Position numbers and translations under genes: made by a program | In this document: piece by piece, positions 16,554 to 54,342 of the stretch | Numbering within the stretch: position 1 is the stretch's first letter | How the letters are laid out: each line of letters starts with the position of its first letter | DNA from: Gammaproteobacteria bacterium | GTDB lineage: Bacteria > Pseudomonadota > Gammaproteobacteria > Ga0077536 | NCBI GenBank assembly: GCA_021773835.1 | Contig: JAJFJQ010000031.1 | Coordinates: forward strand, 1-64,000 | Length of the DNA stretch: 64,000 nt | Reading direction: 5' to 3' | The notes under the pieces: model-generated | What the model saw: the letters and a program-made list of their open reading frames with translations, nothing else | The model's database searches: none | What the model was told of the DNA's origin: nothing

Positions 16554-17831
16554 TTGGAACTAGACAATTTGACCGACGAGGTGCAAGCCCGTTACCGCAA
16601 ATTACTTCGCGATGAAAATAGCGATCCCAACGAGTGGGCGTATGCCTGGCGCTCGGAATACAACCGCGGCGGGTTCAAGGCGGTCGACATGCTCATGCGT
16701 GAAGTTGTCACGCCGGGCAAATGCGTTGGATGTGCAGCGTGCTTGACGATTTGTCCGGTGGATGTATTTGACTATGTGGAAGAGAAGCCTGTCGACACGC
16801 GTCATGACGCGTGTGTTTTCTGTGAGCTTTGCGTCGACGTGTGTCCGGTGCTGCGGCCTGTCGATAAGGACTTGCCGGAGCAGATCGAACTAAAGGAACC
16901 CATTCAGGATCTTGGTTTTGGTCCCTTTAACTACGGCTGTTTCGTTCGCGTGACAGATAAGGCCCCGAAAGTTAACGGTCAAGACGGTGGCTTGTGTAGC
17001 GCCTTACTGATCCATATGCTGAATGAAGGCGACATCGAAGGCGCCATCATTGGGACTGAGGTCGCGGGTAATCCACAAATGGGTACCGAGAACATAGCGA
17101 CAACAGCGGAAGAAATCATCGCCGGCGCGCGCTCACGGTATACCTACCAGCCGAACACTGTCGCCATGGTTGAGGCAATGAAGAAGGACATCAAACCGAT
17201 CGCCGTTGTCGGCGTTCCGTGCCAGGTCGACGGCGTCCGTCAGCAGCAGTTCAGCAGTATCCGACTCGATGTTGCGAAGTGGTATCAGAAGAACATCAAG
17301 CTCGTCATCGGGCTATTCTGCTCTGAGAGTTTTACCGAAGACGGTATTCAATCGTTGGCCGACGAGCTTGAAGTGACCAAAGCCGACATTAAGAACATCA
17401 ACATCAAGGGTAAGGTCGTCATTCAACTAGAGGATGGCCGCGAAGAAAACAAATCGCTAAAGGCCTTTGGGAAGTATGCTCGACCAGCATGTCTGTATTG
17501 TATGGACTACGCCGCCGATAACGCCGATATCGGCCTCGGCGGGATCGGCCCCGACGGCTACACCTTCACAGTGATCCGCACAGAGGCAGGACACGAGGCC
17601 TACCAGTCGATCTTAAAAACGGGTTGGATCGAAGAGATCCCGATGGACGACGAGCCAAAGGCACGAGACCTACTTGCGCGTCTATCGAAGTACAAACGCA
17701 ATCGGCCGTTACCGGCACTGATGCCAACGCTTGAAGAACGAATCGAGATCGGTAATCTCGATCCGAAAAATTTCTATAAGGGCTGGGTCAAACCTGGCAC
17801 CGAAACCGAGGAAAAGGAGGCATCGTCATGA
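16554..17831 (+). CDS. FrhB/FdhB-family iron-sulfur flavoprotein (F420 hydrogenase/dehydrogenase beta-like)
   Basis: 425-residue electron-transfer protein. The N-terminal part has two [4Fe-4S] motifs: C57-x2-C60-x2-C63-x3-C67 and C87-x2-C90-x2-C93-x3-C97. Residues about 120-400 form the FrhB-type FAD domain, including VVGVPCQVDGVRQ near 220, GLFCSESF near 260 and CLYCMDYAADNADIGLGG near 315-332. Relatives move electrons between a flavin and F420 or another carrier. The start is a TTG chosen because GAAGGAGAG lies 7 bp upstream. It overlaps KorA by 4 bp (ATGA), so it probably serves as the electron-handling subunit of the oxidoreductase. Confidence 0.85.
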   Translation: MELDNLTDEVQARYRKLLRDENSDPNEWAYAWRSEYNRGGFKAVDMLMREVVTPGKCVGCAACLTICPVDVFDYVEEKPVDTRHDACVFCELCVDVCPVLRPVDKDLPEQIELKEPIQDLGFGPFNYGCFVRVTDKAPKVNGQDGGLCSALLIHMLNEGDIEGAIIGTEVAGNPQMGTENIATTAEEIIAGARSRYTYQPNTVAMVEAMKKDIKPIAVVGVPCQVDGVRQQQFSSIRLDVAKWYQKNIKLVIGLFCSESFTEDGIQSLADELEVTKADIKNINIKGKVVIQLEDGREENKSLKAFGKYARPACLYCMDYAADNADIGLGGIGPDGYTFTVIRTEAGHEAYQSILKTGWIEEIPMDDEPKARDLLARLSKYKRNRPLPALMPTLEERIEIGNLDPKNFYKGWVKPGTETEEKEASS

Positions 17832-19621
17832 GCGCGGAAAATACTCAGCCAGATCTTGAAGATCTCAACGTTATCGTTTCCGGCCAAGGTGGTGACGGCT
17901 CGCTCACAGTTGTAAACCTGCTCGCGTCGGTCCTGCGGCAAAACGGTATGAGCGTGTATACCGAACGCGATGTGCTATCCCGTATCAAGGGTGGTATCAC
18001 GGCGGCAACGCTACGCGCATTTTCGGGTGAACGATTCACGATCGGCAATCACATCGATTTGTTGGTTGCGTTTGATATCGACGCGGTGCCGAAGAATCGG
18101 CGCCAGCTGAATAAGAACAGCATTGTTTTATATGACAACTCGGGCGGTTCCTTGCCGGATGGCATTTTGGGTGATGAAATCCGCGCCTTTGGCGCGCCAC
18201 TCAGTCGCCAGGCGGTTAAAACCTTCCGTCGCGATATCTACAAAAACAGTATCAGTTTTGGTCTTATTGGGCGCATTCTTGGGTTGCCGGACGACACCAT
18301 GCGGGTGTCCTTCGAGAGTCGCTTCAAGCGGATGGGTCCGCAGATCATGAAGTACAACCTTGATGCGCTAACCGTTGGCCTTGGGCTCGCCGATGAGCTC
18401 GGCTTTGTCGCGGGCAAGGGCCTATACCGCATCCAAGAAATCGAACGCAAACCGCACATGCTGATCACCGGCAATGAGGCCATGGCGTTTGGATTTTCGG
18501 TTGCTGGTGGGCGCTTCTATGCGGGTTACCCGATCACCCCGTCTACTGATGTGATGGATTGGTTGATCAAATGGTCACCGAAATTCGGTGGCGTCGTACG
18601 TCAGGCGGAAGACGAATTGTCGGCCATCAATATGGCGATTGGCTCCGCGCTAACGGGTACGCGGACAATGGTCGCAACCTGCGGCCCGGGTCTGTCGTTG
18701 ATGCAAGAGGGTATTGGCCAATTGGGAATGGGTGAAATCCCGCTCGTAATAGTTGATGCACAGCGCGGTGGGCCGAGTACGGGCATGCCGACGAAACCTG
18801 AGCAAAGCGATCTTAATCTACTCGTATTCGGTGGGCATGGTGACTTTCCTCGTATCGTCCTCGCCCCAGGGAATCCGGAAGATTGCTTTTACTTAACCGT
18901 CGATGCTTGCAATCTATCCCAGCGCTACCAGTGCCCGGTGTTCATTGCCTCCGATCAAGCGTTGTCGCAGAACACCGCGACGATCGATCCTTTGGACCTT
19001 GAACGGGTTGTCATCGACCAAGGCAAACGCCTTGATGCCGATGACGTAAGTAAACTCGACACCTACAAACGTTATCTGTTCACCGAAGACGGCGTGTCGC
19101 CATACACCATTCCCGGCACACCTGACGGTATGTCACTGGTCACCGGTAATGAGCATGACGAGTTTGGCCTAGTCTCAACCGACCCAGTCAATCGCGTACG
19201 CATGGTCGATAAACGCCAGATGAAAATGAAAACGATGCTACCGGAATTGCCGCGTGCGGGGCGCTTTGGCGACCTCGAGTCAAAGATCGGGATCATCGGT
19301 ATCGGTATGACCTTCGGCGTTATCTTGGAAGCCCTGGATACGCTGGCCGATCGCGGCATCGATGCGCAGTACTTTCAACCGAGAACGCTCTGGCCGATGC
19401 TCGATGAGACGATTGAATTTATCAACGGCTGTGATGTTGTATACGTCGTTGATCTCAACGCCGAAGGGCAGCTTGCTGGATTATTTGTGCGCGAAGGCGC
19501 GGACGCTTCACGCATCCGCAAGCTCTTGCACTACGACGGTACGCCGATCCGTTCGGATGCGGTGGTGGAGTTTGTGGTGAATGATCAGACTCAAGCCTTA
19601 GGCGCGGAGGAAGTAGCATGA
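17828..19621 (+). CDS. korA: 2-oxoacid:acceptor oxidoreductase, fused gamma-alpha subunit
   Basis: 597 residues. The N-terminal gamma domain (about 10-195) opens with VIVSGQGGDGSLTVVNLLAS. A domain II/alpha pyrimidine-binding part starts at GNEAMAFG (215) with the typical YAGYPITPSTDVMDW at 231-245, an RQAEDELSAINMAIG segment and MVATCGPGLSLMQEGIG. The gamma-alpha fusion is the usual bacterial/archaeal KorA form. With KorB it would decarboxylate a 2-oxoacid to an acyl-CoA and reduce a low-potential carrier. The substrate (2-oxoglutarate, pyruvate or another) cannot be settled from motifs. Start and stop overlap both neighbours by 4 bp, indicating tight translational coupling. Confidence 0.9.
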   Translation: MSAENTQPDLEDLNVIVSGQGGDGSLTVVNLLASVLRQNGMSVYTERDVLSRIKGGITAATLRAFSGERFTIGNHIDLLVAFDIDAVPKNRRQLNKNSIVLYDNSGGSLPDGILGDEIRAFGAPLSRQAVKTFRRDIYKNSISFGLIGRILGLPDDTMRVSFESRFKRMGPQIMKYNLDALTVGLGLADELGFVAGKGLYRIQEIERKPHMLITGNEAMAFGFSVAGGRFYAGYPITPSTDVMDWLIKWSPKFGGVVRQAEDELSAINMAIGSALTGTRTMVATCGPGLSLMQEGIGQLGMGEIPLVIVDAQRGGPSTGMPTKPEQSDLNLLVFGGHGDFPRIVLAPGNPEDCFYLTVDACNLSQRYQCPVFIASDQALSQNTATIDPLDLERVVIDQGKRLDADDVSKLDTYKRYLFTEDGVSPYTIPGTPDGMSLVTGNEHDEFGLVSTDPVNRVRMVDKRQMKMKTMLPELPRAGRFGDLESKIGIIGIGMTFGVILEALDTLADRGIDAQYFQPRTLWPMLDETIEFINGCDVVYVVDLNAEGQLAGLFVREGADASRIRKLLHYDGTPIRSDAVVEFVVNDQTQALGAEEVA

Positions 19622-20481
19622 CTAAGACATTCACACCGGCACGACCCATTTGGTGCGCAGGCTGCGGTGACTTCGGTGTCCAACAGGCGCTAGAAAACGC
19701 AATGAAAAATTTGGGCATCGAACCCCATGAGACGGTCGTGGTCGCGGGGATCGGCTGTTCCGGATCGTTGCAAAACAATGTCCGCTGCTACGGTTACCAT
19801 GCGCTCCACGGACGCGTGTTACCGACGGTGACGGGCGCCAAGTTGGCAAATACAGATCTCACGGTGATCGGTGTTGGTGGCGATGGTGATGGGTACGCAA
19901 TCGGCGGTGGGCACCTGATGCACACGTTAAAGCGTAACCCGAGCGTAACCTACATCGTCATGAATAACGGTACCTACGGTTTAACCAAAGGCCAGGCGTC
20001 ACCAACCAGCCCGAATGGTTACGGTGAAAACATCGAAGAAGATCTAGACCCGATTTTGCTCGGCATGAGCATTCCCGGTTCGACGTTTCTTGCGCGCGGC
20101 TATACCGGTCAACCTGCGCAGTTGTTAGAGCTAACGACGGCGGCGTTGGAGCATGCGGAAAATGGTCGCGGCTTCGCTTTTTTAGAGGTTCTATCGCCCT
20201 GTGTCACCTATAACGATACCTATCGTGAGTGGCGCACGGACGTCTACGACGTCGAACAGGATCCGGACTATGATGCGAGCGATAAAGTTGCGGCATTTAC
20301 ACGCTTAATGGCGCTGCGTGACCAAGGCCGACTTCCGATCGGACTACTCTATCGAGGCGAGCGTCCAGCGCTAGAGGAGGCGGCTTTGAATCATGATTTT
20401 CCGCCGCTTGCCTTGCAGGACATTGACCCGAGCAAGCTAATGGATAAATACCAGCAGGCGCTGGAGTCATTCATGCGCTAG
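19618..20481 (+). CDS. korB: 2-oxoacid:acceptor oxidoreductase, beta (TPP-binding) subunit
   Basis: 287-residue thiamine-diphosphate subunit. The N-terminal WCAGCGDFGVQQAL (12-25) and GIGCSGS (44-50) provide conserved Cys. The TPP/Mg motif is GVGGDGDGYAIGGGHL (85-100) ending in VMNNGTYGLTKGQ. A third and fourth cluster Cys typical of KorB-type [4Fe-4S] binding are seen in the N-terminal half and at SPCVTYND near 200. The length matches KorB rather than the longer pyruvate-type beta subunit. It is the last gene of the FrhB-KorA-KorB operon, which is followed by a palindromic repeat and a terminator. Confidence 0.9.
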   Translation: MTKTFTPARPIWCAGCGDFGVQQALENAMKNLGIEPHETVVVAGIGCSGSLQNNVRCYGYHALHGRVLPTVTGAKLANTDLTVIGVGGDGDGYAIGGGHLMHTLKRNPSVTYIVMNNGTYGLTKGQASPTSPNGYGENIEEDLDPILLGMSIPGSTFLARGYTGQPAQLLELTTAALEHAENGRGFAFLEVLSPCVTYNDTYREWRTDVYDVEQDPDYDASDKVAAFTRLMALRDQGRLPIGLLYRGERPALEEAALNHDFPPLALQDIDPSKLMDKYQQALESFMR

Positions 20482-24700: not shown

Positions 24701-25564
24701 CTAGGTAGACTGCGCGTTTATCCGCTCACGTTCCTGCTCCGCTCGCCTTGCATTACCGGCCGCAAGCAATTCCGCTCGATTGTCGTCACCGACCCGCAGG
24801 AAGTTGGTTTTCCAAGTCGAAGATTCATCCCAGACGAACGGTGTTTTAACGACCGACCCGGGTTCGGTCGCCGTTTCGAGTAAGGACAGCGCGCTAGACA
24901 TTATCGAGCGCTGTGAAGACTCGTCATAGGGCTTGCCACACGGGTTACCCAGCGGAAAATCAGTAAACAAAAATCGTGGGACACCGCAGTAAGTCACGAT
25001 GTCCATCGCGGATCCAATGATTACCGTTGCAATACCGTTTTCTTCGAGTAGTCGTGCAACCAGACTCACGGTCTGGTGGCACACAGGTCACAAGGGAACT
25101 AACAGCGCAACATCGACCCCATCGTCAAGACATGATTCGAGGATCGCGGGTGCGTCTTTCTGCATCGTGCGACGATGGGAATATCGAGTTGGGACACAGT
25201 AGAAATGATCGGAAAGCTCGCCGATCTCTCCAGCCAACTGACGTTTGCGCAATTGTTCGGCGGGGAAAAAAGAATTGAGATCGTCAGTATGCGTTGCATC
25301 TCTATCCCACCCGAGGCCGTCGGTAAAAAGTTTAGTCGGCGGATCTCGCAGGTCCCCGATGTGCAGCTGCCGTTGATTCCTGGCAGTGTTCGCCGCCGGC
25401 ATACTGGTGCTGACAATGGAAACTGTGCTGGCCGCCAGCTTTTTTTTCAATGGTGAGAACGGGATATCATCGAAATGTGCCCATTCGTATGGCTTATCGT
25501 AACCGTAGGCGGCGTAGTAATCGCGCGTACGCTCCATGTAGTGGACAGTGTTGTCGGTGGTCAT
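24701..25564 (-). CDS. Selenoprotein of the glycine/sarcosine/betaine (D-proline) reductase B family; in-frame TGA read as Sec159
   Basis: One 287-residue frame interrupted only by TGA at 25090-25088. An ordinary translation gives two fragments (25564-25088 and 25084-24701). Reading TGA as selenocysteine gives ALLVP-L-U-P-V-C-H-Q-T, a U159-x2-C162 redox motif. The full-length paralogue at 49361-50269 aligns along its whole length and has Cys174 (TGT) at exactly this place, LLFPNCPVCHQS. A SECIS-like hairpin follows the TGA (25054-25082). GRDB-family proteins use Sec as the nucleophile in reductive cleavage of glycine, betaine, sarcosine or proline, but the true substrate here is unknown and the subfamily is short (PrdB-sized). 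The start ATG at 25564 has GGAG 7 bp upstream. No selA/selB/selC/selD is in the window. Confidence 0.88.
25054..25082 (-). promoter_or_regulatory. Bacterial SECIS-like hairpin directing Sec insertion
   Basis: On the minus strand, beginning 6 nt past the TGA: GTGC (25082-25079), C, ACCAGAC (25077-25071), loop CGTGA (25070-25066), GTCTGGT (25065-25059), T, GCAC (25057-25054). A perfect 7-bp upper stem and a 4-bp lower stem are separated by one C-U mismatch. The 5-nt apical loop begins 17 nt after the TGA and has G at its second position. Known bacterial SECIS elements place the apical loop about 16-37 nt after UGA and need G among the first two loop bases. The equivalent place in the Cys paralogue does not fold this way. 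Confidence 0.85.
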
Positions 25565-25764
25565 TGTTGCTCCTGATTGAGCCTAAGAAATTCTATAGCG
25601 CACTGTAAAACATAACCCGTTCATTTGTACGGATCCAGCGCCTCACGACACTTCTATACCGAGGACCTATATCTCGTGCCTTACTCATCCTCGAATCCAG
25701 GGAAACTAGGCGCTACACTGCTCGCATATCGCATCATTTCATTCGCACACAGAGGATTTGATCT

Positions 25765-28233: not shown

Positions 28234-28797
28234 CTATAAGAGCGCTGTCTCGTGCATCAAATAATCTAAAAGATAAGGTACCAGTGAACGTGAGGTTTCG
28301 AGTACAAAATCGTGTTCATCCCGGCGCCACAGATATATGCCTGCCTTGGCATAGACCGTTCGTGTGCATTTTCCGATCGGAAATGTATTGAGTTCCAAGC
28401 TCTGCGGGCAACCTGAGGCCAACGCCTCAACAACCGCACAGCCTTGCAGGTGGAACCCGACGTTACGGTGGCTGATATCGACAAACGAGAATGGATGATC
28501 GGCAGCCGCGTCACCCACGCGATCTGTAACACCGTTGGCGGGGGTGTGATCGATCAGCAGTAACCACTCGTCCGGGCCAAGGTGCAAGGCGCTGCAACCG
28601 TCTGTGACGCTTGCACGATTTATCGGTACATCGAGCGCGAGCCCAAGTGCCTTCGAGATGGCGTCGATTGCCGGTTCGCGGCCGCGCAAAATATAACGTG
28701 CGACCCCATCGATTTCTGTCATCGCGAACAGATCGGTCGAGCCAGGTAAGGCACGGCCTTCGCTTGCTCTGCGACTATTGAGCTCAAGCTTAGCCAT
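28234..28797 (-). CDS. soxG: Sarcosine oxidase gamma subunit
   Basis: 187 residues, the smallest catalytic-complex partner after delta in heterotetrameric sarcosine oxidase. Typical elements are the GSTDLFAMTEIDGVARYILRG opening and SALHLGPDEWLLLIDH near residues 75-90, resembling a short GcvT-like domain. The start at 28797 (ATGGCTAAG) is preferred over the longer frame at 28839, because it overlaps the soxA stop by 8 bp in the manner of coupled genes. Last gene of soxBDAG. Confidence 0.9.
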   Translation of the reverse strand: MAKLELNSRRASEGRALPGSTDLFAMTEIDGVARYILRGREPAIDAISKALGLALDVPINRASVTDGCSALHLGPDEWLLLIDHTPANGVTDRVGDAAADHPFSFVDISHRNVGFHLQGCAVVEALASGCPQSLELNTFPIGKCTRTVYAKAGIYLWRRDEHDFVLETSRSLVPYLLDYLMHETALL

Positions 28798-31700
28798 TGA
28801 GGCGGTCCCCTGGTGCATCGAAAAATACCGGGGCAACAACCTCTACGGCGATCGATTGGTCCGGCATCGGTATGAAAAGTCGCTCGCCGATGCGTGCCCG
28901 CCCGCCGGCGACCATGGCTAAGGCTATCGATCGATCTAAGGTAGCACTGTAATAGGCGGAGCTGACAAAACCGAGTGCGGCCGTACCGGCAGGCGGATTT
29001 GAATCGGCAGTCACCTGCGCACCTTCCTCGAGCACGGTCTTAGGTGACTCCGTTAATAGGCCTACGAGCTGCGGCCGATCAGAGCGCCGTTGTCCAACAC
29101 GATCGAGTGACCGTTTGCCGACAAAGTCGAGTTTGTTTTTCCCAATTACCCACGCGAGTCCTACGTCATCCGGCACCATCGTGCCGTCCGTTTCCTGACC
29201 AACGATGATGTAGCCTTTCTCAGCACGCAGTGCGTGCATCGTGTCGGTGCCATAGACACACCCACCGGCCGTATTTGCCGCTTCGCTGAAGGCCTCCCAT
29301 AACGATAGGCCGTAGCCAGTCGGAATATTGATTTCAAAGCCCAATTCGCCGGTGAAACTTACGCGAAATATCCGTGCCGGTACGCCTTGTAGCTCGCATT
29401 CGATCACGCTCATGTGAGGGAATGCAGTGTGGTCCAAATCAAGTTCTGGGCAGACGTCGCCAAGCACCTCTCGCGCACGTGGTCCTTGTACTGCAATGGT
29501 TGCCCATTGCTCGGTGATCGAGGTCAACCAGACATCGAGCTCCGGCCATTCGGTTTGCAGATAATCTTCCATTAAGTTGAGTACCGGTGCTGCGGCGCCG
29601 GTAGTGGTCGTTACGTGAAAGCGATCGTCGGACAAGCGCGCGATGATGCCATCGTCGATGATGAAACCCGCTTCGTTTAATAGCACGGCGTAGCGGCAAC
29701 GGCCCGGTTTCAGACTCGTCAGGCTATTGACATACATGCGCTCAAGGAACACTAACGCATCGGGTCCGACCACCTCGATCTTGCCCAAAGTGGAGGCGTC
29801 AAATATGCCAACTGCGTTACGTGTTGCCGCGCATTCGCGCTGCATTGCCGCCCGCCGATCTTCGCCGGTATTCGGAAAGTACTGTGCGCGCCGCCATTGG
29901 CCAACGTCTTCAAAAACCGCATGATGCGCACGGGCCCACGGATCGCTCGCCGGAGTTCGTAGCGGATCGATCAAATAGCCGCGTCCGCTGCCGGCCAAGG
30001 TGCCGAAGGTGACCGGGGTGTAGGGTTGACGAAAGCTGGTCAGGCCGATCTCAGGAATACTGCGCCCCGTAACATTCGCTGCAATCGCCAGTGCGTGCAG
30101 ATTCGATGTCTTACCTTGGTCGGTGGCCATGCCGGAAGTGGTGTAGCGTTTGATGTGTTCGATCGAGCGGAAACCTTCGCGGATGGCCAGTTCGATATCT
30201 GCCGCGGTGACATCGTTTTGCAGGTCAACGAAGGCCTTCGACAAACTTGTTGGTTGCGTGGTGTCGCTCATCCCTAGATGACCGCCGCTATACGACACCC
30301 AGTTTTCGGCCTCAGGTAACGATGGCTTTGCGGTTGGAAGACCAACGGATGTCGCCGCCTTCGACCCCGCCGCGTCGCCGTCCGCGAGCACCTCCGGCAT
30401 GGTGAACCGTCCGGTACAAGCGCCAGCGGATTGTTGTCCTTGTCTCTTATCCGAAGGAGCATAGACCAGCTCATCTGCGTCCCAGCGCAGGCGTCCGTGG
30501 GATTGTGAATGCAGATGCACCGATGGTGTCCAACCGCCACACATGAGGACGACGTCGCAATCAATCGATTGCTTGTTTGTGCCGCTGGCGTCGCCATTGA
30601 TGATCACCCCAGTTACTCGCTTGCCGCCGGTAGTATTCGCAATTGTCGTGGCCGGCATTAACCGGATCCCCCGGGCTTCGATCTGGCTTGCGAGCGCTGG
30701 CGGTGCTTGTTGGCGTAAATCGCACACGGCAGCGACTTCGATCCCGCTGGCGTGTAGATCGAGTGCCGCTGCGTAGGCGGAATCACATGCCGTCGTGATA
30801 ACGGCGCGTCGCCCGACGAGGACACCGTAACGGTTCAAATAACTGCGTGCCGCATCGGCCAGCATTACGCCGGGTCGATCATTATTCGGAAATACCATGG
30901 AGCGCTCGATCGCCCCGGCGGCGATTACAACTTCACGCGCGCGCACTTGCCATAGGCGTTCTCGTGGTGCGCCGGCGGATACGTCGGCTACATGATCTGT
31001 GAGGCGTTGTGCGAGCGCGACCATGTTATCGGCGTAATATCCAAATGCGGTTGTCCGTTTTAACATCGTCACGCCAGCGCTTTCGAGCTCCTGCACTTGA
31101 CGGTTCAGCCATTCCCGCGCACTGAGGCCGTCGAGCAGCGACTGCGACTCGTGTAGTAAAGAGCCACCGAATTCAGATTGTTCATCGCACAGGATCACTT
31201 TGGCTCCGGCGAGCACCGCGCTTCGTGCGGCGGCGAGGCCGGCCGGCCCGGCGCCAACGACCAAGACGTCGCAATGCGCGAAACGATTGATATAGGTGTC
31301 GGGATCCGGCCTGCTTGGTGCGCGGCCAAGACCGGCGGCGCGGCGGATCATCGGCTCAAATATCCTAGACCACGTACGTGACGCGCCCAGCCATCGGGGC
31401 CCAATAAATGTTTTGTAATAGAACCCCGCGGGTATCAACGGTGCCGCTATTCCTGCAACGGCACCGAGATCCCAGCGTAGCGACGGCCAGCAATTTTGAC
31501 TTGTCGCGGTAAGGCCGCCGTATAGGTCAATTTGAGTCACCCGCAGATTCGGGGTTTCGCGCGCCGCATCGCGTGCGATCTGGACCAAGCCATTTGGATC
31601 TTCCGCACCTGCAGTGACAATGCCGCGGGGGCGGTGGTACTTAAACGATCGCCCGACCAGGTGGACGCCGTTGGCAAGTAAGGCGGAGGCGAGGGTGTCG

Positions 31701-31798
31701 CCAGCGAATCCTTCAAGCTGCTGTCCATCGAAGGAAAACGTGAGCGGCCGATTGCGATCGACGAGGCCGCCGCTAGCGGTGCGAAAGGATTGCGTCAC
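28790..31798 (-). CDS. soxA: Sarcosine oxidase alpha subunit
   Basis: 1002-residue subunit of the enzyme that oxidatively demethylates sarcosine to glycine, H2O2 and (with folate) 5,10-methylene-THF. The N-terminus has a 2Fe-2S ferredoxin-like/Fer2_4 fold region (RPLTFSFDGQQLEGFAGDTL) followed by SFKYHRPRGIVTAGAEDPN. A central NAD-binding domain has VLVVGAGPAGLAAARSAVLAG (about 174-194). The C-terminal 400 residues are a GcvT-like aminomethyltransferase domain, with the TGELGFEINIPTGYG region near 820. Length is normal for TSOX alpha. GTG start at 31798 overlaps the soxD stop (GTGA). Confidence 0.95.
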   Translation of the reverse strand: MTQSFRTASGGLVDRNRPLTFSFDGQQLEGFAGDTLASALLANGVHLVGRSFKYHRPRGIVTAGAEDPNGLVQIARDAARETPNLRVTQIDLYGGLTATSQNCWPSLRWDLGAVAGIAAPLIPAGFYYKTFIGPRWLGASRTWSRIFEPMIRRAAGLGRAPSRPDPDTYINRFAHCDVLVVGAGPAGLAAARSAVLAGAKVILCDEQSEFGGSLLHESQSLLDGLSAREWLNRQVQELESAGVTMLKRTTAFGYYADNMVALAQRLTDHVADVSAGAPRERLWQVRAREVVIAAGAIERSMVFPNNDRPGVMLADAARSYLNRYGVLVGRRAVITTACDSAYAAALDLHASGIEVAAVCDLRQQAPPALASQIEARGIRLMPATTIANTTGGKRVTGVIINGDASGTNKQSIDCDVVLMCGGWTPSVHLHSQSHGRLRWDADELVYAPSDKRQGQQSAGACTGRFTMPEVLADGDAAGSKAATSVGLPTAKPSLPEAENWVSYSGGHLGMSDTTQPTSLSKAFVDLQNDVTAADIELAIREGFRSIEHIKRYTTSGMATDQGKTSNLHALAIAANVTGRSIPEIGLTSFRQPYTPVTFGTLAGSGRGYLIDPLRTPASDPWARAHHAVFEDVGQWRRAQYFPNTGEDRRAAMQRECAATRNAVGIFDASTLGKIEVVGPDALVFLERMYVNSLTSLKPGRCRYAVLLNEAGFIIDDGIIARLSDDRFHVTTTTGAAAPVLNLMEDYLQTEWPELDVWLTSITEQWATIAVQGPRAREVLGDVCPELDLDHTAFPHMSVIECELQGVPARIFRVSFTGELGFEINIPTGYGLSLWEAFSEAANTAGGCVYGTDTMHALRAEKGYIIVGQETDGTMVPDDVGLAWVIGKNKLDFVGKRSLDRVGQRRSDRPQLVGLLTESPKTVLEEGAQVTADSNPPAGTAALGFVSSAYYSATLDRSIALAMVAGGRARIGERLFIPMPDQSIAVEVVAPVFFDAPGDRLNG

Positions 31799-47979: not shown

Positions 47980-49074
47980 CTAAGCAGCCTCGGTTTTAGA
48001 ATCCGTTGACCAGCTACGGAGTTCTGGCATGACTTCGGTGGCGAACGTATCTAGGCTGCGCTTGGCGGTTTCGAATGGTATGCCGGCACAGCGGAAGATA
48101 CATAATAGACCGGCATCGCCAAGGTAACTGCGTCGGTTTTCAAGTTTGTCCAACATTTGCTGAGGGGTGCCCCAGACTTGTTGGCTGACGTAGGTATCCG
48201 CCGCACTTTCGAGGCCGGCCGCGTTGAGTGCATCGACTGCATCGCCGTAGGCCTCGTAGCCTTTAGCGTCTTTGAAATGCTCACCCATTAGTTCGTAGTG
48301 ATGCATAACACTCAGCATATAACCGCCAATATACTTGCGCGCATTATCTTCACAGCGTGACGCGTCTTTGTCGCAAACCATGACTTCGGACAGCACCATG
48401 GGTTCGGGCGTACTTTTGTGAATTTTCTGATACGTAGCTGAATAGGCCTCGTATTCCGATTTCTGTTGTTCGATAGGAATGTAATTGAAGGCCATCAGTC
48501 GCGCGCCGTGTTTGGCGGCTTCCTGGCCTGAGTCGGGGCTCATGGCGATCTGCGCAACCCGACCGTCGAAAGATTTTGGTCTTGGGCGAATCACCGCACG
48601 CGGCTGATCGAAATACTTGCCATGATGTTCCTCCATCACCCCAGTTTCGAGTGCCTGCAGGATCATTGGCACTGCTTCATCGAAGCGCTCGCGGGACTCG
48701 TCCATATCCACGCCAAATTGGTTAAATTCGCGTCGGGACAAGCCCCGGCCGAGGCCGAGAATGGCACGGCCGCCAGAAATCTGATCCAACAGTGCCGCCT
48801 TCTCGGCAATACGTAAGGGCTGTGTGTTCCACGGTACGATCACCGCACCAGTTGCGAGTTTGATTTGCTTAGTTTTCGCTGCGAGGTAGGCAAGGTAGAC
48901 GAAGTTGTCCGGGCACATGGAATAATCTTCGAAGTGATGTTCCACCACCCACGTACTATCGAAGCCATGTTCGTCGGCGGCCATGACGAGCTTCAGTTCT
49001 TCATCGTAGACATCGTCGTCGGTCATGCCGTCATAGCCCCATTTCTGCATGATCTGCATCAATCCTATATCCAT
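47980..49074 (-). CDS. LLM-class flavin-dependent oxidoreductase 2
   Basis: 364-residue luciferase-like monooxygenase. Starts with DIGLMQIMQKWGYDGMTDDDV and carries STWVVEHHFEDYSMCPDNFVY (about 40-60), GRAILGLGRGLSRREFNQFG and RPKSFDGRVAQIAMSPDSGQ. It groups with F420/FMN-type barrel enzymes but differs in length and detail from copies 1 and 3, so the three are not recent duplicates. Same direction as the GRDB-like gene upstream. Confidence 0.88.
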   Translation of the reverse strand: MDIGLMQIMQKWGYDGMTDDDVYDEELKLVMAADEHGFDSTWVVEHHFEDYSMCPDNFVYLAYLAAKTKQIKLATGAVIVPWNTQPLRIAEKAALLDQISGGRAILGLGRGLSRREFNQFGVDMDESRERFDEAVPMILQALETGVMEEHHGKYFDQPRAVIRPRPKSFDGRVAQIAMSPDSGQEAAKHGARLMAFNYIPIEQQKSEYEAYSATYQKIHKSTPEPMVLSEVMVCDKDASRCEDNARKYIGGYMLSVMHHYELMGEHFKDAKGYEAYGDAVDALNAAGLESAADTYVSQQVWGTPQQMLDKLENRRSYLGDAGLLCIFRCAGIPFETAKRSLDTFATEVMPELRSWSTDSKTEAA

Positions 49075-49360: not shown

Positions 49361-50269
49361 CTATGCCGTTTTCTTCTTCGCGTAGCCCAGTTCCTGTTGA
49401 CGCTGGAATTCAAGTTTGAGGCGTGCGCGTTCGGCCGCATCAAGCCCTTCGATACTGCAGAAATCAGCCTTCCAAGCGTCCGACCGCGCCCAATGCTGTG
49501 GATTGATCCGGGTTGTGCCCGGTGTTTGCGCTGACGCAAGGATGTCGAGACACAAAGCAAGCACCTGCGCTTGCGACTCAGGCTCGAACGGCTTCCCCGC
49601 AGAATTCCCAAGCGGAAAATCGTTAAACACAAATCGTGGTACGCCACAGTGCTCGACGATATCTTTCGCGCAGCCGCTGATGACGGTTGGGACCCCGTTT
49701 GCTTCGAGGTGCCTAGCAACCAGCGACACACTTTGATGGCACACCGGACAATTCGGAAACAACAATACCGCGTCGACCGCATCGTCTCGGCACAGCTGTA
49801 ATATATCGTTGCCGTATTGATCGACGGTACATTGCTGGTCGCGATCGGTTGGGAGGCCGTAGAAGCGCGGCGCCATGCGGCCGATCCTGCCATCGGCTAC
49901 CGCGTCGCGAACGGCCGCGAGTGGGAAGTAGCTGCTCTGGTCCGCGGCAGTGGTGTGAGCGCGATCGATGGCGATGTGCGAGATCCTGAGGTCGGGCTCA
50001 CCTGCGGTTGATTCGGCATAGACTTCGAAAAACTTTGCCGCGCCATTGTAGTTTGCGCCAGGGCCTTGCTCACCGAACTGCGGATCGAAACGTACGGCGG
50101 TTGTAACTAACGCAATGGTCGCCTCACTTACGGGCTTCACAAGTGGGGTAAACGGGATCTCATCGTGTTGCGCCCAGCGGTAGGGATCGCCGAATTCCAG
50201 CGCTTGATAGTAAACGCGAGTACGTTGCATGTAGTCGATTGGGGCGTTGCGTTCTGAATCAACCATCAT
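49361..50269 (-). CDS. Glycine/proline reductase B-like protein, cysteine (CPVC) version
   Basis: 302 residues, aligned end to end with the selenoprotein at 24701-25564. Where that protein has Sec it has Cys174 (codon TGT at 49750-49748) in LLFPNCPVCHQSVSLV, followed by the shared run VARHLEANGVPTVISG and CGVPRFVFNDFPLGN. The Cys-x2-Cys redox site implies the same reaction at lower rate or under selenium limitation. No SECIS-like hairpin is found after the site. Divergent from the acyl-CoA ligase gene. It is the upstream neighbour of LLM gene 2 on the same strand, with a 286-bp gap. Confidence 0.88.
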   Translation of the reverse strand: MMVDSERNAPIDYMQRTRVYYQALEFGDPYRWAQHDEIPFTPLVKPVSEATIALVTTAVRFDPQFGEQGPGANYNGAAKFFEVYAESTAGEPDLRISHIAIDRAHTTAADQSSYFPLAAVRDAVADGRIGRMAPRFYGLPTDRDQQCTVDQYGNDILQLCRDDAVDAVLLFPNCPVCHQSVSLVARHLEANGVPTVISGCAKDIVEHCGVPRFVFNDFPLGNSAGKPFEPESQAQVLALCLDILASAQTPGTTRINPQHWARSDAWKADFCSIEGLDAAERARLKLEFQRQQELGYAKKKTA

Positions 50270-52728: not shown

Positions 52729-53259
52729 ATGGCAGCTAAAATCAGACGCGTCGTAACCGGACATAACGAAGCGGGGCGCTCGGTGATCCTATTTGACGGT
52801 GATGCGGGTGCGGTAAAAGAGATGGAATCGATGCCTGGCTTGGCCCTGACGGATCTTTGGGAAACAACTGGTGCACCAGCCAATAACGAAGGCAGTGCCG
52901 ACGCAGCAGATCGGCAGGTCGTATTGGAGCCGCCAGCAAACGGTACGATTTTTCGGATCGTCGAGTTTCCACCGGACACGGCCTGGAAAGGCCAAGCCGA
53001 TGCGCACGAAGCCTTCGATTCGATCGGTGCGGGCCACGCCTCGGATTCGAGTAGCGACGATCCGATGATGCATAAGACGTCGACGATTGATTATTTGATC
53101 GTCGTGAAGGGGGAGATCTGGGCGGTCCTTGAAGAAGGCGAAGTTTGCTTGAAACCCGGCGACGTGATGGTCCAACGTGGGACGAACCACTCCTGGAGCG
53201 TGCGCACGGATGAACCGTGTCTACTGGCGGCGGTTCTCGTCAACGCGACGCCTGTTTGA
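52729..53259 (+). CDS. Cupin-domain protein 2
   Basis: 176 residues. The C-terminal half is a cupin with STIDYLIVVKGEIWAVLEEG and CLKPGDVMVQRGTNHSWSV, where the His of the second motif is present. The N-terminal half has GTIFRIVEFPPDT. The MAAK start at 52729 is preferred over a longer in-frame start at 52576, because GGGGGAG lies 8 bp before it and the longer version would overlap the previous gene. Function unknown; probably metabolite binding or ring-opening dioxygenase-like. Confidence 0.85.
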   Translation: MAAKIRRVVTGHNEAGRSVILFDGDAGAVKEMESMPGLALTDLWETTGAPANNEGSADAADRQVVLEPPANGTIFRIVEFPPDTAWKGQADAHEAFDSIGAGHASDSSSDDPMMHKTSTIDYLIVVKGEIWAVLEEGEVCLKPGDVMVQRGTNHSWSVRTDEPCLLAAVLVNATPV

Positions 53260-53310
53260 GCGTGTCCGCATTATCTCCGATATCGTGGGTCGACACCGGG
53301 GAGGAATGAT

Positions 53311-54342
53311 GTGTCTAACGATTGTAGTCGCGGCGTAAAATTTGGTCTTTGGTACGACTTCCGTAATCCGCAGCAGTGGCGGCGACCTTACGACACGCTG
53401 TACTCGGAAATACTCGAGCAGATCGTCTGGGCTGAAGACCGTGGATTCGAGTATGTGTGGCTGTCGGAACACCATTTTTCGGACGATGGATATTCGCCTT
53501 CGATGTTTCCGATTGCCGCGGCGATTGGTGCGCGGACTAAAAAGATCCGGATTGGGACTTCGCTCGTGCTGTTGCCATTACACCATCCCGTTCGTATCGC
53601 CGAAGATGGTGCCACAGTCGACGTCATTTCCGGCGGTCGCTTTGAACTTGGTGCCGGTATCGGTTATCGAGTAGAAGAGTTCGCAGCATTCGATATCCCG
53701 GTGAGTGAGCGCGGCGGCCGCACGAGCGAAAGCCTCGAGATCATTCGCCGCTTGTGGGAAGGGGAGACCCTGAGCTTTAAGGGCCGTTACTACAACATCG
53801 AAGGGGCAAGGGTTACGCCCGAGCCGATCCAGAAACCAAGACCACCACTTTGGGCCGGCGGCTTTACAGCCCCCGGTATTAAGCGTGCCGCCCGGCTTGC
53901 AGACGGTTACGCGGGTATCGCACCGAATAGCACACAACCAAGCTATGAGCTATTCATGTCCGAATGGCAGCGCCTAGGCAAAGCGGTCGAGGAAAAGCGT
54001 ACTGCGGGCGGTTTGTTTTGGTTAATCCCCTCCCGCGATCCCGACAAGACTTGGACCGAGGCTGCGGAGCATGTGATCCATCAAGTCAATGCGTATCGCG
54101 AATGGACGGAGAAGGCCGGGGAGACGATGTTTCCGAAACTCGAGAGCCATGCCGATCTACGCGAGACCGGTATGCTGCAGGTGGTCGAGGTCGACGAATG
54201 CATCGAGATCATCCGTGATTACGTTAACGAAATGGGCTTGACGCATTACTATTCCTGGACCTTACCACCAGGATTGCCAGCCAGTTGGGCGCAGCCATAT
54301 CTTGAGCTATTTGCCGAGCAGGTGATCCCGGCATTTCGGTGA
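53311..54342 (+). CDS. LLM-class flavin-dependent oxidoreductase 3
   Basis: 343 residues of the luciferase superfamily. Key parts are EYVWLSEHHFSDDGYSPSMF (about 49-68), GARTKKIRIGTSLVLLPLHH, DVISGGRFELGAGIGYR and RPPLWAGGFTAPGIKRAARLADG. The GTG at 53311 is the start, supported by GGGGAGGA five bases upstream; the overlapping ATG at 53309 is out of frame. Last enzyme of the ligase-HCCA-cupin-LLM set. Confidence 0.9.
   Translation: MSNDCSRGVKFGLWYDFRNPQQWRRPYDTLYSEILEQIVWAEDRGFEYVWLSEHHFSDDGYSPSMFPIAAAIGARTKKIRIGTSLVLLPLHHPVRIAEDGATVDVISGGRFELGAGIGYRVEEFAAFDIPVSERGGRTSESLEIIRRLWEGETLSFKGRYYNIEGARVTPEPIQKPRPPLWAGGFTAPGIKRAARLADGYAGIAPNSTQPSYELFMSEWQRLGKAVEEKRTAGGLFWLIPSRDPDKTWTEAAEHVIHQVNAYREWTEKAGETMFPKLESHADLRETGMLQVVEVDECIEIIRDYVNEMGLTHYYSWTLPPGLPASWAQPYLELFAEQVIPAFR

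Follow-up and report, generated by a model that had tools for sequence, protein, structure and literature searches.

Glycine, sarcosine and betaine reductases need GrdE-type partners, and we take the C-terminal part of the corresponding GrdB, GrdF and GrdH models to bear a UxxC motif. The available excerpts of two reviews, from 2022 and 2026, describe D-proline reductase as a UxxC selenoprotein represented by TIGR04483 (PMC9312934, PMC13188914). Plasmids of 21 kb from Terrisporobacter that carry prdA and prdB, along with selA, selB, selC and selD, have been published (PMC10564238, in excerpt); on the Terrisporobacter plasmid in our set (NZ_CP102985.1; locus L134), prdA and prdB occur with selA and selD. 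Its PrdB (WP_228110000.1) is a 241-aa protein encoded beside prdA, with the motif UGTC. In the sea, a Sargasso survey reports, in the parts available, 42 PrdB selenoproteins with UxxC (PMC1088965), and the corresponding parts of the Global Ocean Sampling analysis list 235 Sec and 110 Cys members, assigned to pfam07355 and bearing UxxC, among the abundant families (PMC2398784).

We analyzed a 64,000-nucleotide stretch of gammaproteobacterial DNA (the window) from a 6.14 Mb genome that is assembled in 74 contigs and 98% complete. The features relevant to a PrdB-like gene in the window, and to its host genome, are as follows.

24701..25564, minus strand: putative PrdB-like selenoprotein gene, 287 codons plus a TAG stop if TGA is read as Sec159
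25088..25090, minus strand: in-frame TGA, putative Sec159 of a UxxC motif; aligned site U or C in 113 loci
25570..25574, minus strand: AGGAG, ribosome-binding-like motif, by eye, five bases before the ATG
25056..25080, minus strand: SECIS hairpin of 2 + 7 pairs with a one-base mismatch on each side between them; 5-base loop at 25070-25066
49361..50269, minus strand: Cys-containing paralogue (CPVC), 302 aa; PF07355 at 29 bits; 39% identity to the Sec protein
Contig C47:431451-432824: selA, 599 bits
Contig C47:432851-434740: selB, 421 bits
Contig C47:434844-434935: tRNA-Sec gene (selC); ARAGORN, tRNA-SeC with anticodon UCA
Contig C55: selD, 295 bits

The gene runs in a single minus-strand frame from an ATG at 25564 to a TAG at 24701, and the TGA at codon 159 (25090-25088) is its sole interruption. 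A sequence-only reading had described two ORFs in one frame parted by this TGA, with a ribosome-binding motif and ATG before the first alone, and we could confirm both points. ORF 1 (25564-25088, minus strand; 158 aa) starts with the ATG that follows AGGAG at 25574-25570; ORF 2 (25084-24701, minus strand; 127 aa) starts with a GTG whose upstream sequence, ttgtgacct, by eye holds no AGGAG-like motif. In the shared frame, only the TGA and one more codon lie between them. Read-through would yield a product of 287 residues with the motif L-U159-P-V-C-H-Q. Alignment also bore out the proposed pairing of L-[TGA]-P-V-C-H-Q with N-C-P-V-C-H-Q in the paralogue (50269-49361, minus strand), where the aligned Cys codon is TGT. 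Only two TGA codons in the window have at least 110 in-frame open codons on both sides; the other, at 53257 on the plus strand, separates two different proteins, one cupin-like (below the Pfam cut-off) and one luciferase-like.

The best NCBIfam match of the window protein is PrdB (TIGR04483, 4.5e-22), scoring 78.7 bits where the cut-off is 300, whereas the authentic Terrisporobacter PrdB, used as positive control, scores 422.6 bits on the same model. By alignment, the UxxC column of the window protein is that of the Sec of authentic PrdB (UGTCH); the two share Sec in the same column and the pattern U-x-x-C-H, with 24% identity over the alignment. Unlike its Terrisporobacter counterpart, the window protein extends further at the N- and the C-terminus, reads UPVC and has no prdA. 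It aligns to the C-terminal part of the GrdB, GrdF and GrdH models (431-435 positions) but scores no more than 33-35 bits where the cut-offs are 602-800, and the broader TIGR01918 gives 31.7 bits against 65.45. With Cys substituted for Sec, the window protein matches no Pfam family at E <= 0.001; the paralogue to which it is 39% identical matches PF07355 (GRDB) above the cut-off of 22 bits. Cys homologues from Bradyrhizobium, Belnapia and other Pseudomonadota are 43-50% identical over most of the window protein; they carry Cys for Sec, and the hairpin is eroded in them. Two plasmid relatives, from Roseomonas and Haematobacter, carry the annotation 'glycine/sarcosine/betaine reductase selenoprotein B family protein'. 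The assignment to a GRDB/PrdB family made by the sequence-only reading stands as far as a PrdB-like relative with UxxC is concerned and falls for membership of the PrdB equivalog, given the score far below its cut-off.

To the best 80 of 169 relatives from a species collection we added the five copies of the family in the window's own genome and loci from related genomes. In the 113 homologue loci where the site is present, the codon is TGA in 74, TGC in 30 and TGT in 9, with no other residue, and loci without TGA have Cys in 39 of 39 cases; position 159, proposed earlier for a comparison among homologues, is U or C throughout. Left out of the 113 were a secondary zero-score domain with Ser at the site (L080) and a fragment that lacks the site altogether (L133). 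Because L054 and L108 are apparently one contig with identical site sequence, as are L070 and L111, the distinct loci number about 111 (72 U, 39 C). TGA loci include records titled as Pseudomonadota groups, Acidobacteriota and Actinobacteria. The record behind L054, CAMATU010000002.1, is titled as a Klebsiella pneumoniae MAG and apparently equals the L108 contig from the window's own family (both 61313 long, besides sharing the site sequence), so its Klebsiella label looks wrong. In the same-genus orthologue L070/L111, a run of N from 1275, shortly after the Sec codon, marks a gap in the assembly and not an insertion.

Four of the five copies in the own genome carry TGA and one carries Cys. 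For the tree and the structure alignment, 64 of the 113 rows were kept after removal of near-copies, rows with N, rows of odd length and rows with uncertain bounds; the tree comprised these 64 homologues and one PrdB, and its bootstrap was not fully settled. In it, the window protein clusters with four TGA relatives, and three changes are needed to account for the TGA/Cys pattern, and well-supported branches force two of these. The window's Cys paralogue falls in a separate clade in which Cys predominates (12 C, 2 U) and is therefore an old and distant relative. As a match for the TGA gene it retains the Cys at the aligned site that the sequence-only reading had pointed out, and it is not one half of a recent Sec/Cys pair, given its 39% identity and its place in another clade.

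Two further TGA paralogues depart from the motif. One (L023, 1495-2325; own genome C47:127600-128349) reads U-P-L-D-H-Q, with Asp replacing the Cys of UxxC and with frame and hairpin kept; judged from this substitution, either Sec would act alone in this copy or its function would have changed, and thus the Sec-Cys pair need not serve every copy. The other, more distant (L024, own genome C47:287745-288218), has U-P-D-C-C-R-S. On the PrdB model L023 reaches 139 bits and L024 137 bits, which brings both closer to authentic PrdB than the window protein.

The sequence-only reading had placed a SECIS element in its title without giving evidence, and the element is now supported, with covariation in TGA genes and erosion in Cys genes. 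The first conserved pair of the hairpin lies eight bases 3' of the TGA and the loop starts 17 bases 3' of it. Pairs were counted in a fixed register on a gapless alignment, so that the alignment was not fitted to the structure. Among 68 distinct TGA sequences, 95.4% of cells are paired and 33 cells are double-changed, compared with 8.0 in shuffles; sliding the partner strand leaves at most 34.4% paired, a comparison biased toward the unslid register, the structure having been derived from the window sequence. Among 37 distinct Cys sequences, 77.5% of cells are paired and double changes are at chance level (3 versus 2.6 in shuffles). The pair at columns 19-27 is formed in 63 of the 68 TGA sequences versus 3 of the 37 Cys sequences. 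Two of five measures were no better than shuffles, namely the number of double-change pairs (3 versus 2.5) and of further pair types (7 versus 7.9). One example of covariation, from ACC...AGT to TCC...GGA, changes Thr to Ser and Ser to Gly and leaves the stem paired.

A covariance model run over the whole genome gave 68 to 46 bits for the four TGA copies, all of which were in its own training set (window site, 68.2 bits), and 29 bits for the Cys copy; no further match was found at E <= 1 among the 150 of 1858 first-look candidates that were scored. Rfam has no family match at the TGA site. Taken alone, the hairpin is unexceptional within an 81-base segment (z -1.29, with 21 of 200 shuffles as good). 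The SECIS signal therefore comes from the comparison across genes and not from the folding energy of a single gene.

The sequence-only reading had proposed a search of the host genome for selA, selB, selC and selD, and all four are present: selA, selB and selC are consecutive on contig C47, and selD lies elsewhere, on C55. The other RNA match above the cut-off in the host genome is an ordinary tRNA-Ser. We then cross-tabulated by hand the TGA copy and selB in 58 genomes of relatives, the own genome included. A TGA copy occurs in 29 of the 58, and 24 of these 29 have selB above the cut-off. Two others with a TGA copy (G013, G031) have selB split over two contigs, and in the remaining three (G024, G034, G035; 81-87% complete) selB was not found, which is most simply explained by incomplete bins. 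Five of the 58 genomes (G002, G005, G006, G025, G027) have selB above the cut-off without a TGA copy, and neither is present in the remaining 24, among them the 22 genomes from other families.

Compared with four relatives, nonsynonymous differences per site are 0.28-0.34 before the TGA and 0.23-0.30 after it, and synonymous differences, at 0.73-0.86, are near saturation. Judged from these codon comparisons, purifying selection acts on both sides of the TGA. The model of the read-through product is one compact alpha/beta domain spanning the TGA (mean pLDDT 95.7, pTM 0.93), in which Sec159 is predicted to lie between a strand (152-156) and a helix (160-175); by this model, the 158-residue product would be without the second half of the sheet. 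Asp95, Arg171, Glu174, Arg197, Asp202 and Gly206 are conserved across the 64 rows and are candidate pocket residues. Among solved structures, the single protein found no relative at E <= 1 by sequence, a profile search gave two chance-level matches only (E 0.44 and E 2), and Foldseek with the model gave no match at E <= 0.001. The best VIA-align hit was a sugar-type repressor (Z 8.1, 142 residues aligned, rmsd 4.2); this is the level of common alpha/beta arrangements and informs neither function nor fold novelty.

Together, these results bear on how the TGA is to be understood. A pseudogene, in which a nonsense mutation had disrupted what was once a Cys or Sec gene, or else a pair of separate genes, would account for the two ORFs seen under table 11, but the TGA occupies the same codon in 74 loci under several phylum-level record titles, the 3' part is under purifying selection, the second ORF has no start signal visible by eye and the predicted single domain spans the TGA; we consider this reading very unlikely. 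That a sequencing or assembly error made TGA from TGC or TGT might be suspected of an assembly in 74 contigs, yet TGA and the conserved hairpin occur in independent assemblies and TGA occurs in four paralogues of the own genome, and such an error is extremely improbable. The frame, which is uninterrupted once TGA counts as a sense codon, would fit the reading of TGA as some other amino acid, for example through genome-wide recoding to Trp; this reading has hardly any probability against Cys as the alternative residue in all 39 loci without TGA, the presence of tRNA-Sec with selAB and a gene-specific hairpin 3' of the TGA. We rejected all three. Selenocysteine is almost certainly what TGA159 would encode on this sequence evidence, which strongly indicates that the apparently broken gene is one intact selenoprotein gene and not two fragments. 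The 287-residue Sec protein put forward by the sequence-only reading is supported by the sel genes, by U or C at the site in 113 loci and by a frame open except for the TGA.

A different question is whether the product acts in D-proline reductase itself, as a PrdB subunit whose pyruvoyl partner has diverged. In favor of this are the best NCBIfam match, to PrdB at 4.5e-22, the same UxxC site as in PrdB and the label PrdB given to marine relatives in the available parts of the literature (PMC1088965, PMC2398784). Against it stand the score of 78.7 bits, with a cut-off of 300 and a real PrdB at 422.6, and the searches for a partner. PF09338 (the PrdA/GrdE family), which we take to hold GrdE-type proteins as well as PrdA, had no match in the own genome (98% complete), in G001, G008 and G009, in the three source genomes of loci L028, L029 and L037 or in a sample of 398 genomes of the phylum that included the own genome; the same search found PrdA on the Terrisporobacter plasmid NZ_CP102985.1, our positive control. 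TIGR04480 had no match in the own genome, in a search without a positive control of its own. No PrdA-like gene occurred in the ten neighbor families scanned, which were represented by sequences from ten among 30 listed clusters of a crude ORF clustering; two larger clusters outside these ten comprise 24 loci, mostly overlapping the gene on the opposite strand, and 17 loci whose positions are scattered. With its low PrdB score and no PF09338 match in the genomes searched, the protein is to be seen as a UxxC reductase of GrdB/PrdB type and not as a D-proline reductase. On these same two grounds, we rejected an authentic D-proline reductase, which we hold to be improbable.

The neighborhoods of 80 loci show no constant partner gene. 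The commonest neighbor exclusive to Sec genes is an HpcH/HpaI aldolase-like gene (11 loci), centered about 0.9 kb 3' of the TGA and on the same strand in 10 of the 11; other neighbor clusters comprise few loci or near relatives only. Elsewhere in the window are a gene for an FrhB-like F420 hydrogenase beta subunit and, after it, those for the alpha and beta subunits of a 2-oxoacid:acceptor oxidoreductase (16554-20481, plus strand), a sarcosine oxidase alpha gene (28790-31798, minus strand) and luciferase-like genes at 47980-49074 (minus strand) and 53260-54342 (plus strand).

The explanation that we favor is that UGA159 is read as selenocysteine and that the product works without a partner, and taken jointly these two propositions are highly probable. 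SelB with Sec-tRNA(Sec) would read UGA159 as selenocysteine, directed by the hairpin whose first conserved pair follows the UGA by eight bases. The product would be a stand-alone PrdB-like oxidoreductase, most likely a partnerless selenol/thiol reductase. In the alpha/beta domain, Sec159 and Cys162 lie where a helix begins after a strand, and most likely the two would act as a selenenylsulfide redox pair, which may reduce a small substrate and be restored by thiols or a thioredoxin system. Because no pyruvoyl subunit is recognizable, the substrate is probably not bound to a partner as a Schiff base.

With the ocean 'PrdB' set, as described in the available parts of the two papers (PMC1088965, PMC2398784), the window gene shares UxxC, kinship to PF07355 and the occurrence of Sec and Cys forms. 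Judged from those descriptions rather than from the papers' sequences, it very probably belongs to this set; a selenoprotein of this kind is already in print, and its decoding is ordinary. The papers, in the same parts, describe the group as abundant and file it under proline reductase, whereas for the window gene no PrdA or GrdE partner was found and the PrdB score is far below the cut-off. Among the matches listed in our literature search, the portions available included no paper that sets apart a partnerless PrdB-like group. That no pyruvoyl partner was found suggests that these members are misnamed as 'proline reductase'. Whether the ocean 'PrdB' proteins, including the window protein, are a separate family of partnerless Sec reductases rather than proline reductases, with several diverged copies per genome, we judge to be evenly balanced. 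If they are, an abundant group of marine selenoproteins would be mislabelled, with undiscovered chemistry on one or more substrates. Read correctly, this locus would hold one functional selenoprotein gene, and the genome four such genes of one family, and the real reaction of the PrdB-like group becomes a testable question.
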